From: Glycomyces xiaoerkulensis
Lineage (GTDB): Bacteria; Actinomycetota; Actinomycetes; Mycobacteriales; Micromonosporaceae
Direction: 5' to 3'
DNA length: 64,000 bases
Assembly: GCF_002798405.1 (NCBI RefSeq)
Contig: NZ_PGGV01000004.1
Span: 62,001-126,000 of the forward strand
A program made the translations under genes and the position numbers. This document shows positions 54,985 to 60,797 of this stretch, piece by piece (position 1 is the first letter of the stretch; each line of letters opens with the position of its first letter). The notes beneath the pieces were generated by a model that was not told the origin of the DNA, made no database searches, and saw only the letters and a list, made by a program, of their open reading frames with translations.

Positions 54985-57453
54985 TCACTCGCGGAGGGTC
55001 GCCCCGAAACGCTCAGCCGCGACCGCGACGGCGCCGTCGCGCACCGCGACGCCCTCCTCGTTGGTCAGCGTCCTGTCGGCCGCGCGCAGTTCCAGCTTGA
55101 ACGCGAGCGACTTGCGGTCCGCACCGAGTTTGGCGTCGCGGTAGACGTCGAACAGCCGCAGGGACTCCAGCAGCGCCCCCGCCCCCTCGCGCAGCGCGCC
55201 CTCGACCTCGCCGGCCGGGACGGACTCGGACACGACCAGGGCCACGTCGATGAGCGTCGCCGGGTAATGCGAGATCACCGGCGCCGCGGCCGTCTCCGGC
55301 AGCGGTATCGCCGACAGGTCCAGCTCCATCGCCGCGGTCCGCTTCGGCAGCCCGAGCGCCTCGCAGACCTCCGGGTGCAGCTCCCCGGCGTGGCCGACGA
55401 CCCGCTCGTCGACGGTCAGTTCGGCGCAGCGGCCCGGGTGCCACGGCGCGGACTCGCCCTGGACGACCGCGAGCGACGCCCCGGCGGCCTCGGCGACGGT
55501 CTCGGCCGCCTCGATCGCGTCGGCCCAGTCCACCGCGCGCCCGGAGCCGTCGACGCCGTCCGGCTCGGCCCGGCCGCACAGCATCGCCGCCACGTGGCGC
55601 GGCTGCTCGGGCAGGCGCCGCACGGCCTCGGCGATCGAGGCGTCGTCGGGCCGGCGGGCGACCGGCAGATCGACCACGGGCCGCTCCGCCCAGCCCTCCG
55701 GCGGCCGGAAGACCAGGCCCTCCTCGAACACCGCCAGGTCCCTCACGCCGCGGGCCAGGTTGGTCCTGACCGCACCCACCAGACTCGCCAGCACCGAGGT
55801 GCGCAGCAGCGGAGCGGCCTCGTCGAGCGGATTGAGCACCGCCACGGCGTCGCGCCGCTCGTCCTTCTCGGCATAGCCGAGCTCGTCGAACCGCTCGCGG
55901 CCGACGAACGGGAACGTGTAGGTCTCGACGTAGCCGTGGTCGGCCAGCGCGCGGGCGACGCGGCGCCGCCGCCGCTGGGAGGCGGTCAGGCCGGTCCCGG
56001 CCAGGGCGCGCGGGATGCTGGAGGGGATCCGGGCGTAGCCGTCCAACCGCGCGACCTCCTCGACCAGGTCCGCCGGGTCGGTCAGGTCCGGGCGCCAGGT
56101 GGCGGGCGTGACGGTGAGCCGCTCGGCTCCGCCCTCGACCGCGCAGCCGGCGGCCTCGAGCATCGCCACCACGGTGCCGCGGTCGTACTCGACGCCGACG
56201 GTCGCCGACGGCAGGCCCACCGGCAGCTCGATCGGTTCGACCGGTCGCCGGCGGTCGATGTCGGCGACCTCGTCGGCGAGGGTGCCGCCGCCGTATTCGA
56301 CCAGCAGGTCGGCCGCGCGCTGCGCCGCGATCAGGCTCAGGGCGGGGTCGGCGCCGCGCTCGTAGCGCTTGGCGGCCTCACTGGTCAGTTTGTGGCGCCG
56401 CGAGGTCCGTGCGATCGAGACCGGATCCCAGTGGGCGGCCTCGACCAGGACGTTGCCGGTCCCGGGTCCGACCTCGGAGGTCTGGCCGCCCATGACGCCG
56501 GCCAGGGAGATCGGGCCGGTGTCGTCGCAGATGACCATGTCCTCGGCGTCGAGGGTGCGCTCGACGCCGTCGAGCGTGGTCAGCTTCTCGGCGGCCGCCG
56601 CCCGGCGCACGACCAGGCCGCCTTCGAGGCGGTCGAGGTCGAACGCGTGGAGCGGGTGGCCCAGTTCGAGCATCAGGTAGTTGGTGACGTCGACCGCCAG
56701 GCCGAGCGGGCGCATCCCGGCGTGGGTGAGCCGGCGGGCCATCCACTCCGGGGCGGGCGCGTTCGCGTCGACGCCGCGGACGGCGCGGAGGGTGAAGCGG
56801 GTGCAGCCGTCGGTGTCGACCCGGATCGGGTGCGGCTCCTTCGCCGTGGCCGCCGGCTCGGCGGCCTTCCCGGCCGGGTCGGTGAAGGCGGTGCCGAGCC
56901 GGTGGGCGACCTCGCGGGCGACGCCGCGGATCGAGAAGCAGTAGCCCATGTCGGGGGTGATCGCCAGCTCGAACACGACGTCGTCGAGGCCGACCGCGGG
57001 CCGGGCGTCGGCGCCGACGGTGCCCTCGGTCAGGACCATGATGCCCTCGTGGTCGTCGGAGACGCCCAGTTCGCGGGCCGAGCAGATCATGCCGTCCGAC
57101 AGCCGCCCGTAGGTCTTGCGGGAGCCGATGGCGAACCCGCCGGGCAGGACCGCTCCGGGCAGTGCGACGGCGACGAGGTCGCCCTCGGCGAAGTTGGTGG
57201 CGCCGCAGATGATCGAGCGGGGCTCGTCCTCGCCGACCTCCACGTGGCAGTGGCGGATCGGCTTTTTGAATTCGGTGAGTTCCTCGACCGAGGCGACCTT
57301 GCCGACCACGAGCGGGCCTTCGACCTGCTCGCGCAGGTCGTGGACCTCCTCGACTTCGAGTCCGGCGTCGACCAGGGCCTGGTCGAGCCGCTCGACGGTC
57401 ACGTCCTCGGGTAGGGCGGCGTATTCGCCGAGCCAGGAGACTGGGATCCGCAT
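54985..57453 (-). CDS. pheT: Phenylalanyl-tRNA synthetase beta subunit
   Basis: 822 residues. N-terminal tRNA-binding OB domain (about 40-150), B3/B4 editing domain (about 210-390), B5 domain, catalytic-like core and C-terminal anticodon-binding FDX-ACB domain (about 730-822; SHYPATLIDVALVVSESVPA). It forms the alpha2-beta2 enzyme with PheS and edits Tyr-tRNA-Phe. It starts 4 nt after the pheS stop. Confidence 0.97.
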   Translation of the reverse strand: MRIPVSWLGEYAALPEDVTVERLDQALVDAGLEVEEVHDLREQVEGPLVVGKVASVEELTEFKKPIRHCHVEVGEDEPRSIICGATNFAEGDLVAVALPGAVLPGGFAIGSRKTYGRLSDGMICSARELGVSDDHEGIMVLTEGTVGADARPAVGLDDVVFELAITPDMGYCFSIRGVAREVAHRLGTAFTDPAGKAAEPAATAKEPHPIRVDTDGCTRFTLRAVRGVDANAPAPEWMARRLTHAGMRPLGLAVDVTNYLMLELGHPLHAFDLDRLEGGLVVRRAAAAEKLTTLDGVERTLDAEDMVICDDTGPISLAGVMGGQTSEVGPGTGNVLVEAAHWDPVSIARTSRRHKLTSEAAKRYERGADPALSLIAAQRAADLLVEYGGGTLADEVADIDRRRPVEPIELPVGLPSATVGVEYDRGTVVAMLEAAGCAVEGGAERLTVTPATWRPDLTDPADLVEEVARLDGYARIPSSIPRALAGTGLTASQRRRRRVARALADHGYVETYTFPFVGRERFDELGYAEKDERRDAVAVLNPLDEAAPLLRTSVLASLVGAVRTNLARGVRDLAVFEEGLVFRPPEGWAERPVVDLPVARRPDDASIAEAVRRLPEQPRHVAAMLCGRAEPDGVDGSGRAVDWADAIEAAETVAEAAGASLAVVQGESAPWHPGRCAELTVDERVVGHAGELHPEVCEALGLPKRTAAMELDLSAIPLPETAAAPVISHYPATLIDVALVVSESVPAGEVEGALREGAGALLESLRLFDVYRDAKLGADRKSLAFKLELRAADRTLTNEEGVAVRDGAVAVAAERFGATLRE

Positions 57454-57457
57454 CCGT

Positions 57458-58525
57458 TTATTCCTCCACTCGCAGTCCGGCGGGGAAGCGGACGTCCCCG
57501 TCGGTCATGTCCCGCATGTCGGTGATGCCGTGGCGCAGCATCAGCGCGCGCTCGACGCCCATGCCGAAGGCGAAGCCCGAGTAGACCTCGGGGTCGATGC
57601 CGCAGGCGCGCAGCACCCGCGGGTTGACCATGCCGCAGCCGCCCCACTCGATCCAGCGGGCCCCGTCCTTGTGGGCCGAGAACCAGACGTCGACCTCGGC
57701 GCTCGGCTCGGTGAACGGGAAGTAGGACGGGCGCAGCCGGGTGACCGCGTCGGGGCCGAACACCGACTTGGCGAAGTGGTCGAGGGTGCCTTTGAGGTCG
57801 GCCATGGTGATGCCCCGGTCGACCACCAGGCCCTCGGTCTGGTGGAACACCGGCGAGTGGGTGGCGTCGAGCTCGTCGGTGCGGTAGACGCGGCCGGGCG
57901 CGACGGTGTAGATGGGCGGCTCCCGGCGGAGCATGGTGTGGATCTGGACGGTCGAGGTGTGGGTGCGCAGCACCATGCCCGAGCCGCCGCCCCCGTCGCC
58001 GCCGGCCAGGTGGAAGGTGTCCATCATGGTCCGGGCCGGGTGGTCGGGGTGGATGTTGAGCGCATCGAAGTTGAACCATTCCAGTTCGACCTCGGGGCCC
58101 TCGCCGATCTCGTAGCCCATCGCGACGAACAGGTCGGCGATGCGGTCCATCTGGACGCTGATCGGGTGGCGGGCGCCGACGCGGCGGCGGGGCGTGCGGG
58201 CGGTGACGTCGACGGTCTCCTCGCGGAGGATCCGCGCGGCCTCCTCGGCCTCCAGCGCGGCCCTGCGGGCCTCGAAGACGGCGGTGATCTCGGCGCGGGC
58301 GGCGTTGACGTTGCGGCCGGCCTCACCGCGCTCGGGGCCCGGCAGCGATCCGATCGCGCGGCGGGCCAAGGAGACCGGCGCCTTGTCGCCGAGGCAGGCG
58401 GACTTGGCCGCGGCCAGCTCCGCCGGCGTGGAGGCGCCCTCGATGGCGCTGGTCGCTTCTTTGACGGCCCTGGTCAGGGCCTCGGGCTGGAGCAGGCCAG
58501 CCGGACTGTCGTTCTCGTTGCTCAT
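57458..58525 (-). CDS. pheS: Phenylalanyl-tRNA synthetase alpha subunit
   Basis: 355 residues. An N-terminal coiled coil (about 10-100) and a class II catalytic core. [46 protein letters not shown] is motif 1, [25 protein letters not shown] motif 2 and [18 protein letters not shown] motif 3. Charges tRNA-Phe. AGGAGAG before the ATG lies directly beside a long-range stem in the leader, which may control initiation. Confidence 0.97.
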
Positions 58526-58535
58526 TCGTTCTCTC

Positions 58536-58591
58536 CTGGCGGGACCGTAAGGAGTGTAGGGAAGCCGTGCGGCTCTGCCGCAGCCCGCCAG
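58536..58591 (-). promoter_or_regulatory. pheS leader stem-loop beside the ribosome-binding site
   Basis: CTGGCGGG and CCCGCCAG are perfect 8-nt arms (58584-58591 and 58536-58543 on the minus strand). They enclose an inner TGCGGC-N3-GCCGCA hairpin (58568-58582). The distal arm runs straight into the pheS Shine-Dalgarno AGGAGAG. The structure could gate translation or act with the upstream leader ORF. No T-run follows, so it does not look like an intrinsic terminator. Confidence 0.6.
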
Positions 58592-58606
58592 GGAGTGTGT
58601 GGGCCT

Positions 58607-58663
58607 CTAGCGCCACAGCCCGCACCCGGCGGGCCGGCTAAATGCGCGAAGACCGTGGGACAT
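58607..58663 (-). CDS. Putative pheST leader peptide
   Basis: An 18-codon ORF, MSHGLRAFSRPAGCGLWR, followed by TAG. On the minus strand TATGAT lies exactly 6 nt before its ATG, the leaderless arrangement seen repeatedly in this window and the best match of all. It ends 16 nt before the first arm of the leader stem. It has one Phe, encoded by TTT, which should be rare at this GC content, and one Trp. A hairpin (58618-58634) overlaps its distal half. It may couple ribosome position to pheS expression. Confidence 0.55.
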   Translation of the reverse strand: MSHGLRAFSRPAGCGLWR

Positions 58664-58675
58664 GCCCCGATCATA
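58664..58675 (-). promoter_or_regulatory. Promoter of the pheST leader
   Basis: TATGAT (58670-58675, minus strand) is a near-perfect -10, 6 nt before the leader ATG. No convincing -35. It would let pheST be transcribed apart from infC-rpmI-rplT-trmH. Confidence 0.6.
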
Positions 58676-58704
58676 GCGACCGTCCGCGGGCGGCCGCACC
58701 CCGC

Positions 58705-59511
58705 TCACGGGGCGGACCGCCGACGCGCGGCGCTCGCGTACAGGCACACACCGGCGGCCACGGCGAGGTTCAGGCTCTCGGCCCGGCCCCACATGGGGAC
58801 GCCGACCCGGCGGTGCGCCCGGACCTGGGTCGGCTCGTCCAGGCCGTGGGCCTCGGAGCCGAACAGCCACACCGTCGGCGCGTCGAGATCCCCGGCCGCG
58901 CTCAGCGCGAACAGGTCCTCCCCGCCTGCGGCGGCCGCGAGGATCTGGGCGTGGTCGAACACGTCCAGCAGCTCGGCGGTGTCGGCGCCGCGGACGACCG
59001 GCAGATGGAACAGGCTCCCGGACGAGGCGCGCACGCACTTGCCGTTGTACGGGTCGACCGAGCCGGTGCCGAACACCACGCAGTCGGCCCCGGCCGCGTC
59101 GGCGGCGCGCAGCACGGTCCCGGCGTTGCCGGGGTCGGTGACGCCGTGGAGCACCGCCACCAGGTTCGCCTCCGGCGGGAGCCGCTGGTCGCCGAACCGG
59201 CAGGCGGCGACCAGGCCCTGCGGGGTGACCGTCTCGGCCAGCGCGGCGAGCGCGTCGTCGGCGACCGGGTGGACGTGGGCGCCGGCGGCGATCGCGTCGT
59301 CGATCAGGTCGCTGTGCCGGGTGTCGGCCTCGATGTCGTAGAACAGGTCCTCCACCGCGCCCGCGCCGACCGCCTCGCGGACGGCCTGCGGGCCTTCGGC
59401 GAGGAAGCGGCGGGCTTTGTCGCGGCCGCGGCGGCGCTGGAGCTTCCTGGCAGCGACAACCCGGGACGATCGCGGTGTGAGCGCGTCCGTCCCGGGTGCC
59501 TCGGATGCCAT
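58705..59511 (-). CDS. SpoU/TrmH-family RNA 2'-O-methyltransferase
   Basis: 268 residues. N-terminal substrate-binding domain (RFLAEGPQAVREAVGAG) and C-terminal SPOUT knot with VLHGVTDPGNAGTVLRAADAAGADCVVF, VDPYNGKCVRASSGSLFHLPV and VWLFGSEAHGLDEP. This position after rplT is typical of the TsnR/RlmB-type gene that methylates 23S rRNA. The exact target nucleotide is not certain. Its ATG adjoins the rplT stop. Confidence 0.92.
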   Translation of the reverse strand: MASEAPGTDALTPRSSRVVAARKLQRRRGRDKARRFLAEGPQAVREAVGAGAVEDLFYDIEADTRHSDLIDDAIAAGAHVHPVADDALAALAETVTPQGLVAACRFGDQRLPPEANLVAVLHGVTDPGNAGTVLRAADAAGADCVVFGTGSVDPYNGKCVRASSGSLFHLPVVRGADTAELLDVFDHAQILAAAAGGEDLFALSAAGDLDAPTVWLFGSEAHGLDEPTQVRAHRRVGVPMWGRAESLNLAVAAGVCLYASAARRRSAP

Positions 59512-59895
59512 CTAGCGCTCGGCGGGAGCGTTGACGTCCTCGGGGAGGGCCGACTTGGCGACCTCGACCAGGGAGGTGAACGCCCCCGGGTCGTTGACGG
59601 CGAGGTCGGCGAGGATCTTGCGGTCCACCTCTACCTCGGCGAGCTTCAGGCCCTGCATGAACCGGTTGTAGCTGATGCCGTTGGTGCGGGCGGCCGCGTT
59701 GATGCGGGTGATCCACAGCTTGCGGAACTCGCGCTTGCGGGTCTTGCGGTCCCGGTAGGAGTAGGTGTACGAGTGCAGTAGCTGCTCTTTGGCCTTGCGG
59801 TACAGGCGGGAGCGCTGGCCCCGGTACCCCTTGGCTTCTTCGAGTATGGTGCGACGCTTCTTCTTGGCGTTCACCGAACGCTTGACGCGTGCCAC
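59512..59895 (-). CDS. rplT: 50S ribosomal protein L20
   Basis: 127 residues, including [42 protein letters not shown], the conserved basic N-terminus that binds 23S rRNA, and the C-terminal globular domain with [18 protein letters not shown]. The C-terminus is slightly extended. Part of infC-rpmI-rplT. Confidence 0.98.
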
Positions 59896-59941
59896 AGTTA
59901 TGTCTCCTTGCGGTTAAGCGGTCTGGGTCAACGAACGGCGC

Positions 59942-60136
59942 CTAGCGGCCGAGCAGCTTCCGGGTCTGCTTCTGGTCGGCCTTGGCCACCTCGGTGCGGC
60001 CTTCGATGCTGCGCTTGCGCTTGGAGCTCTTGTGCTCCAGGAGGTGGTTCTTGTTGGCCTGCCGGCGCATCAGCTTGCCGGAGCCGGTGACCTTGAACCG
60101 CTTCTTGGCTCCGCTGTGGGACTTCATCTTCGACAT
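59942..60136 (-). CDS. rpmI: 50S ribosomal protein L35
   Basis: 64 residues beginning [20 protein letters not shown], the invariant L35 N-terminus; very basic. AGGAG precedes the ATG at 60136, and upstream in-frame codons carry no homology. Confidence 0.98.
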
Positions 60137-60218
60137 AGTGGTTCTCCTAGTTGTCAATGCCGCACTTCCAGCGGGCGCTCCTGCGCCCGCTCGAACGCGG
60201 TGTACGGGCGGTCCGGGC

Positions 60219-60797
60219 CTACTCCGCGGTCGCCTGTTCGGCGGCTCGGTCGCGGCCGCCCTTGCGGCCGCCGCCCTTGGCATCGCCCTTCGGGCGATGG
60301 GGCGCCACCACCATGACCATGTTGCGGCCGTCCTGCTTCGGGGCCGATTCCACCGACCCGAGGTCGGCGATCTCCTCGGCGAGCTTGTCGAGCAGGCGCC
60401 GGCCCAGTTCGGGGCGGGACTGCTCGCGGCCGCGGAACATGATGGTGACCTTGACCTTGTCCCCGGCCTTGAGGAACCGCACGATGTGACCCTTCTTGGT
60501 CTCGTAGTCGTGCGTGTCGATCTTCGGCCGGAGCTTCATTTCCTTGATGACCGTCTGCTGCTGGTTGCGGCGCGAAGCACGGGCCTTCTGAGCCGACTCG
60601 TACTTGAACTTGCCGTAGTCCATGAGCTTGCAGACCGGCGGTCGGGCGGTGGGCGCAACCTCGACCAGATCCATGTCGACGTCGGCGGCCAGCTGCTGGG
60701 CCTTGTCGATCGGAACGATGCCGACCTGCTCGCCCTGCGGGCCGACCAGGCGCACTTCGCGTGCCCGGATCTGGTCGTTAACGCGCAAATCGCTGAT
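60219..60797 (-). CDS. infC: Translation initiation factor IF-3
   Basis: 192 residues if begun at ATC 60797: [24 protein letters not shown] matches the conserved actinobacterial N-terminus (ISAEPRINDRIR in Streptomyces), and AAGGAGG lies 4 nt upstream. The rare AUC initiation codon is in keeping with IF-3 discriminating its own start, known for infC. An ATG at 60839 would add 14 non-conserved residues. Both IF-3 domains and the linker are present, plus a Lys/Gly-rich C-terminal tail. IF-3 prevents premature subunit joining and proofreads initiation. First gene of infC-rpmI-rplT. Confidence 0.95.

Follow-up and report, generated by a model that had tools for sequence, protein, structure and literature searches.

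Comparison of the region between trmH and pheS suggests that the pheST genes of Glycomyces and of many other genomes are preceded by a leader that could act as a ribosome-operated switch of the attenuator type, with a long-range helix between two leader segments, A1 and B, as the OFF state; judging from the aligned sequences, we give this reading about an even chance. More specifically, a single UUU codon, rare and read by wobble, would gate, from an invariant distance of six bases, a long duplex between an upstream ORF (uORF) and the leader beyond it; the segment adjacent to this codon, as opposed to a later one, would select one of two near-identical partners, A2 or B, and no U-tract terminator would be required for the output. 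This narrower proposal, taken jointly with the view that these leaders form an undescribed family of pheST switches, appears to us to fall slightly short of even.

The window, that is, the whole stretch of DNA analyzed, comprises 64,000 nucleotides from Glycomyces xiaoerkulensis (contig NZ_PGGV01000004.1) and carries, on the minus strand, a rplT-like gene, a trmH-like RNA methyltransferase gene (58705..59511), pheS and pheT, in that order. The first two names are putative; the trmH-like one is that of the first-pass annotation. The presumed target of control, pheS (57458..58525, start codon ATG at 58525-58523), is the first gene of the pheS-pheT pair and is separated from trmH by a gap (58704-58526, minus strand); it is followed by pheT (54985..57453), which is placed by its order and length and named from sequence features. 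Among the named genomes compared, the closest relatives of PheS come from Glycomyces (86-90% identity). The Shine-Dalgarno sequence of pheS, AGGAGAG, is located at 58531..58537, and a -10-like box farther upstream, TACACT (P2, 58553..58558), is probably the basal pheST promoter.

Within the gap lies a module whose arrangement is common to Glycomyces, Stackebrandtia, Virgisporangium and many other genomes, upstream of pheS: a start signal, a short ORF with a TTT codon, six nucleotides, segment A1 (GCCCGCCGG), segment A2 (GGCGGGC, still within the ORF), the stop codon, a C/T-rich linker, segment B (CACCGG[CT]GGGC) and a hairpin, D. The counts below refer to 89 aligned loci (92 model matches minus three judged spurious, two on the wrong strand and one far from the leader), which are related to each other, with 19 belonging to one genus, and the counts are not those of independent events. 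Outside these 89 rows are duplicates of named loci among L082-L101, L185, L199 and L233, the loci with linker insertions (L007/L084 and L016), and three divergent ones (L122, L124 and L129).

The leader ORF and its phenylalanine codon

The leader ORF of the window, MSHGLRAFSRPAGCGLWR (58607..58663, minus strand), has 18 codons, with the ATG at 58663 and the stop codon TAG at 58609-58607, and is predicted to be leaderless, with transcription expected to begin at 58663. The first-pass annotation had drawn attention to a TATGAT box 6 nt ahead of an 18-codon ORF in the trmH-pheS gap, and this box (P1, 58670..58675, minus strand) is indeed present, separated from the ORF by CGGGGC. It had also named the conservation of the ORF in relatives as a check. 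Under a test that demanded a -10 box at 6-7 nt or a Shine-Dalgarno-like motif, an open frame through the Phe codon and a stop within 20 codons, the ORF frame with its start signal and stop is kept in 87 of the 89 aligned loci, compared with none of the 89 for either the +1 or the +2 frame. The claim that the ORF is leaderless survives for Glycomyces, all 19 loci of which have TANNNT at a spacing of exactly 6 nt from the ORF start (0/19 in each of the other two frames), but does not extend further: a box at 6-7 nt precedes the ORF in 36 of the 89 loci, and a Shine-Dalgarno-like motif is found instead or in addition in 56. Predicted leaderlessness is therefore a Glycomyces feature and not a general one across the aligned loci. 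In L193, L110, L220 and L207, the -10-like box of the ORF (TATGCT or TACGCT) falls within the last trmH codons, and the start of the leader ORF overlaps the region of the trmH gene end.

The single Phe codon of the window ORF (58640..58642, minus strand), the presumed sensor, is TTT, as previously noted, and the expected rarity of this codon is confirmed: TTT accounts for 6 of the 460 Phe codons in 32 pheS genes from the loci retrieved and for none in the pheS genes of Glycomyces. Apart from a single TTC, the aligned loci all use TTT as the Phe codon (88 of 89); the base 3' of this codon is A in 83 and another letter in five, and the spacing between the Phe codon and the CCC of A1 is 6 nt in 89 of 89. 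Most of the leader ORFs contain one Phe codon (81 of the 86 counted, with two such codons in the other five), and a run or cluster of Phe codons is absent from these 86 ORFs. In the window, a terminator scan found no T-run terminator, and the sigma-70/terminator scan as a whole returned nothing. Both the absence of such a terminator and a logic unlike that of a Phe-rich leader had been anticipated, and with a single rare TTT and no T-run terminator, these expectations are upheld.

Pairing segments of the leader RNA

In the window, A1 (CGGCCCGCCGGG, 58625..58636) is located inside the ORF and A2 (GCGGGCTG, 58616..58623) in the ORF tail; the C/T-rich linker (58593..58606) leads from the ORF stop to B (CCTGGCGGGCTG, 58581..58592), which adjoins hairpin D (GCGGC-AGA-GCCGC, 58569..58581), all on the minus strand. 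A1 can form 12 bp with B, and A2 is its alternative partner; in the comparison, both segments are complementary to A1, B more strongly than A2. For A1:B together with D, 97.1% of the alignment cells are paired, compared with 22.0-51.2% when the pairing is slid by 1-3 columns, and two-sided changes are seen at 7 of the 14 pairs; none of 500 shuffles reaches the observed values on any of five measures, although the alignment was fitted to the structure and favors it. Considered separately, D is paired in 100% of the cells in 87 loci, with two-sided changes at three of four pairs. The longest A1:B helix has a median length of 12 bp, reaching at least 8 bp in 85 of the 89 loci and 7 bp in the other four. 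Compensation is apparent in L217, where GCCCACCGG is matched by CCGGTGGGC, in L102 and L198, where GCCCGCCAG is matched by CTGG[TC]GGGC, and in L191, where GCCCGCCGT is matched by ACGGCGGGC; lineage-specific extensions of the helix, such as those in L214, L218 and L219, match as well.

These substitutions bear on the suggestion that an arrest peptide, and not RNA pairing, accounts for the conservation. Most of the aligned loci do encode a peptide motif, F-x-[QR]-P-A-G, but the residues after the proline vary while the pairing is kept (PTG in L217, PIG in L221, PAR in L102, PAE in L103, PAV in L191 and L197, PAS in L198), with matching changes in B, so that an arrest peptide appears very improbable as the explanation.

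For the A1:A2 hairpin, 90.3% of the cells are paired, compared with 33.5-58.3% in slid versions; the stem has at least 5 bp in 88 of the 89 loci, is individually better than shuffles (0.05) in 58, and is kept in another register in short ORFs (for example, L217, L220 and L125). Its covariation is weaker than that of A1:B, and one slid version scores slightly higher (0.042 vs 0.037). Single-sequence folding of the whole leader is no better than that of shuffles (z -0.12), and for the 109-nt core, z is -0.72; as folding is uninformative, the case for the leader rests on comparison. A helix between the ORF tail and the linker, which seemed by eye to covary, was rejected, with a score of 10.48 vs 10.32 for shuffled linkers (P 0.35; 85 of the 89 loci, those with a linker of at least 8 nt); it arises because the G-rich tail faces a C-rich linker.

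Several loci depart from the common layout. Insertions in the linker, very roughly 150 nt in L007/L084 and 30-odd nt in L016, leave A1, A2, B and D intact, as expected of a long-range helix. In genus g66 (L223, L224, L240, L244 and L246), a separate D is lacking, although the ORF, UUU, A1, A2 and B are all present; in some members, B can serve as the 5' arm of a small hairpin, such as GACCG-GCGGG-CGGTC in L223. In L111, a second D-like hairpin (GTGGC-TGA-GCCAC) directly follows D.

The linkers, pooled from 85 loci, consist of C (47%), T (23%), G (16.5%) and A (13%), compared with 37% C and 37% G in the adjoining trmH end. Such a composition and the lack of a U-tract would suit a Rho-type mechanism, in which the linker serves as a Rho loading site and the ORF ribosome, together with A1:B, decides whether Rho reaches the polymerase before P2. 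In mycobacteria, Rho and translated uORFs reportedly shape leaders. The linkers are short, however, many of them 11-30 nt, and their low G content may only prevent pairing with A1 or A2; moreover, the sequence signature would be the same as that of the A1:B switch, of which Rho could be the output step. On balance, we consider a Rho-type mechanism distinctly unlikely.

The pairing that the first-pass annotation had placed at the core is a different one, an 8-bp perfect stem running into the pheS Shine-Dalgarno sequence. The stem is present in the window, but its length is 9 bp, with B (58592-58584) pairing with arm C (CCCGCCAGG, 58535..58543, minus strand), a 3' arm that overlaps the Shine-Dalgarno sequence and includes the AGG of AGGAGAG. 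Only 8 of the 19 Glycomyces loci retain all eight tested pairs. Elsewhere in the family, the pairs are complete in a single genus, represented by L102, whose two arms differ in a matching way (GGTGGG/CCCACC; one compensatory change). In the remaining 11 Glycomyces loci, B has changed and C is mostly unchanged. By this comparison, B:C is a lineage-specific accessory, and the deeply conserved pairing is instead A1:B, together with A1:A2 and D. The translational gating proposed along with the stem, whereby B:C would occlude the pheS Shine-Dalgarno sequence and the ORF ribosome or A1:B would free it, agrees with the perfect 9-bp stem of the window and with the compensatory pair in L102; given the incomplete stem in most of Glycomyces and the fact that P2 transcripts would begin just before C and thus lack B, we regard it as quite improbable.

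Distribution and loss of the module

A covariance model built from 29 sequences finds the module in 127 of the 150 family genomes at E<=0.01, nearly always once, with a second weak match in two genomes; among good-quality genomes of the family, 120 of 134 match, and 39 of 44 genera are represented. At the order level, the model matches in 88 of 397 genomes. Beyond the family, E<1e-5 is reached by only six genomes, including G048 and G060 (five in f13 and one in f12), all with pheS downstream. At the class level, there are four matches in 394 genomes: three belong to the family, and the fourth (G661, E 6.5e-4), the only class-level match outside it, resembles in its sequence the interior of a coding gene and is attributed to chance. 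Divergent forms were recognized by eye in f4 (L122, L124) and f5 (L129). In the 60 matches for which the surrounding sequence was fetched, pheS lies just downstream in 55, including all 53 with E<0.001, which indicates that the module is specific to pheST; the five fetched loci without pheS (L222, L225, L230, L231 and L232; E 0.003-0.01) are taken as chance matches.

A P2-like box is found within 45 nt 3' of D in 68 of the 89 aligned loci and is retained near pheS in seven of the eight module-less loci inspected (L106, L237, L238, L239, L241, L242, L243 and L245). Because this box outlives the loss of the module, the module appears to be an add-on control element upstream of a basal promoter. 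In L237, L238, L239, L242, L243 and L245, the module is missing and a TAGACT box is still next to pheS; in the last three of these, pheS itself may be leaderless (box, ~8-9 nt, GTG). In L241, the leader ORF is gone and a different gene is located upstream, with a B-like and a partial D-like remnant (CACCGGCGGGCCGCGGCC) before a TAAACT box. In two Nonomuraea loci (L024 and L030), an upstream histidine-kinase-like gene ends in TTTACCGTGCCCACCGGC, and GCCGGTGGGC or CCGGTGGGC precedes a TAGACT box, a complementarity without a short ORF that may be due to chance.

The absence of the module from some genera in which pheS persists, along with folding z-scores near 0, could be taken to mean that the trmH-pheS gap contains only a non-regulatory promoter and repeat debris, but the conservation of the frame, the codon and the spacing and the covariation disfavor this explanation so strongly that we find it extremely improbable. 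The narrower proposal of an undescribed family of switches would have the module occur in most of one actinobacterial family and in some members of two or more others, with repeated losses; jointly with the switch reading, we hold this to be possible but a little less probable than its contrary.

The proposed switch and related systems

That UUU is invariant and stands at a fixed distance from A1 suggests that the input is a ribosome waiting for Phe-tRNA and that the switch consists in the choice of partner by A1. Aminoacyl-tRNA synthetases are known to be induced by a shortage of their product, and it is for this reason that A1:B is assigned to the OFF state. Under the proposed scheme, P1 transcripts would be translated from the ORF. 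Unless hindered, A1 would end up paired with B, after A2 as a transient first partner, and the resulting long GC helix, stacked on D, would cause most P1 transcripts to stop or to stay silent before pheS, with P2 downstream supplying basal pheST mRNA. When Phe-tRNA is in short supply, decoding of the rare, wobble-read UUU would slow down, and the waiting ribosome would cover UUU and about nine further bases, and with them the 5' half of A1; A1:B would be weakened, P1 transcripts would read on into pheST, and the synthetase would be raised when its product is short. The output step of A1:B could involve Rho, pausing or U-tract-less termination. After D, the loci have 4.2 T per 16 nt and no conserved U-tract; the output may therefore depend on Rho, in keeping with the C-rich linker, or be a stop or pause that needs no U-tract.

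The effect of a ribosome on the pairing was modelled at 30 C on an RNA that begins 24 nt 5' of the Phe codon and ends shortly beyond D; the ribosome was given the conventional footprint, reaching 15 nt upstream and 14 nt downstream of the first P-site base. The median of expected A1:B pairs is 8.9 in free RNA, 4.7 with a ribosome at UUU and 6.9 with a ribosome at the stop codon (9.0, 2.0 and 7.0, respectively, in the window), and at least four A1:B pairs are expected in 80, 57 and 59 of the 89 loci, respectively. According to this model, a ribosome waiting at UUU would weaken A1:B without abolishing it in most loci, and A1:A2 and A1:B would be mutually exclusive helices, the balance between which is shifted by the position of the ribosome.

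The same modelling can be read in the opposite direction, such that B, with the bases after D, would enlarge D into a terminator-like hairpin and A1:B would be the antiterminator; pheST would then be on when the ORF is freely translated, with the ribosome at the stop codon covering A2 and leaving A1 free; stalling at UUU, or a lack of ORF translation, would turn it off. In the model, a ribosome at UUU leaves B paired with the D side in 71 of the 89 loci, compared with 7 in free RNA and 19 with a ribosome at the stop codon, and the latter ribosome leaves the GCCCGCC of A1 free in 76; furthermore, L102 has a real T-run after D, Glycomyces often has CTTTTC, and A1:A2 would make sense as a default OFF hairpin. 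Against this direction, less synthetase would be made during Phe-tRNA shortage, contrary to the established rule for synthetase leaders, no U-tract is conserved, and the extension of D by the GGGC of B, a possibility suggested by the sequences, is weak relative to shuffles (9.40 vs 8.82, P 0.002; individually below 0.05 in 1 of 87 loci). We consider this direction unlikely.

The reading in which A1:B is the OFF state faces difficulties of its own. A ribosome at UUU masks half of A1, and 57 of the 89 loci nevertheless keep at least four A1:B pairs; a lone Phe codon is little for a sensor; the codon is TTC in one locus and is followed by a base other than A in five; B, once freed, could let B:C cover the Shine-Dalgarno sequence in some Glycomyces, with the opposite sign; and the missing conserved U-tract or terminator and the slight advantage of the D extension over shuffles also count against it.

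A search of positions 57000-60500 against Rfam with cmscan (E up to 10) gave two unrelated weak matches and neither a Phe leader nor a T-box, and the whole window, at the gathering threshold, yielded four tRNAs and no leader family. The Phe leaders of gamma-proteobacterial pheST and pheA (Rfam Phe_leader) contain a run of Phe codons and a U-tract terminator. The leader described here resembles them in having an ORF with a Phe codon before pheST and mutually exclusive RNA helices, but it has a single UUU, no conserved U-tract and no Rfam match, and it is A1, next to the Phe codon, that picks a partner, not the segment after it. Among short uORFs, the leaderless, cysteine-rich ones of mycobacteria are said to have been reported by Canestrari in 2020.

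In the accessible part of PMC4633059, the cysteine-rich mycobacterial uORFs are likewise leaderless, short, associated with an amino-acid operon and devoid of a clear intrinsic terminator, but they have runs of Cys codons near the stop, as opposed to one Phe codon followed by a pairing arm. A survey of Actinobacteria (PMC1262725), in the portion available, describes attenuators for trp, trpS2, leuS and ilvB, cysteine leader ORFs and T-boxes of ileS, and that portion reports no conserved RNA structures for phenylalanine operons. Of the systems covered there, the Streptomyces trpS2 and leuS and the actinobacterial trp attenuators are similarly leaders of synthetase or biosynthetic genes with a leader peptide and alternative hairpins, but have repeated regulatory codons and poly-U terminators; the translational T-box of ileS (PMC1262725, same portion) also is an RNA leader of a synthetase gene, with occlusion of the Shine-Dalgarno sequence, but lacks a leader ORF and senses tRNA by direct binding, and no T-box match was obtained here. 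The available text of PMC6429828 does not contain 'pheS' but includes two uORF candidates with Phe or Tyr that are tied to shikimate genes, and the related uORF systems in the accessible parts of PMC13236596, PMC4633059, PMC6429828 and PMC10272879 include none for pheS. In the uORF attenuators of ilvB in Mycobacterium and Corynebacterium, as far as the available parts of PMC13236596 and PMC10272879 go, the uORF ribosome also picks the RNA fold and its stalling raises expression; the Mycobacterium attenuator differs in having a codon run, LVVI, and a terminator with a U-tract.

Among the papers listed by full-text searches of an open-access library, there is none on a pheST leader of this kind. 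Judged by its sequence, the leader is attenuator-like, yet a codon run and a U-tract terminator were both tested for and are absent, and a module without codon runs or U-tract terminators escapes the usual searches for attenuators. If the proposed reading is correct, one rare codon would suffice to sense the charging of Phe-tRNA in GC-rich bacteria, in which TTT seldom occurs, and the compensatory changes in the large natural alignment make the mechanism directly testable.
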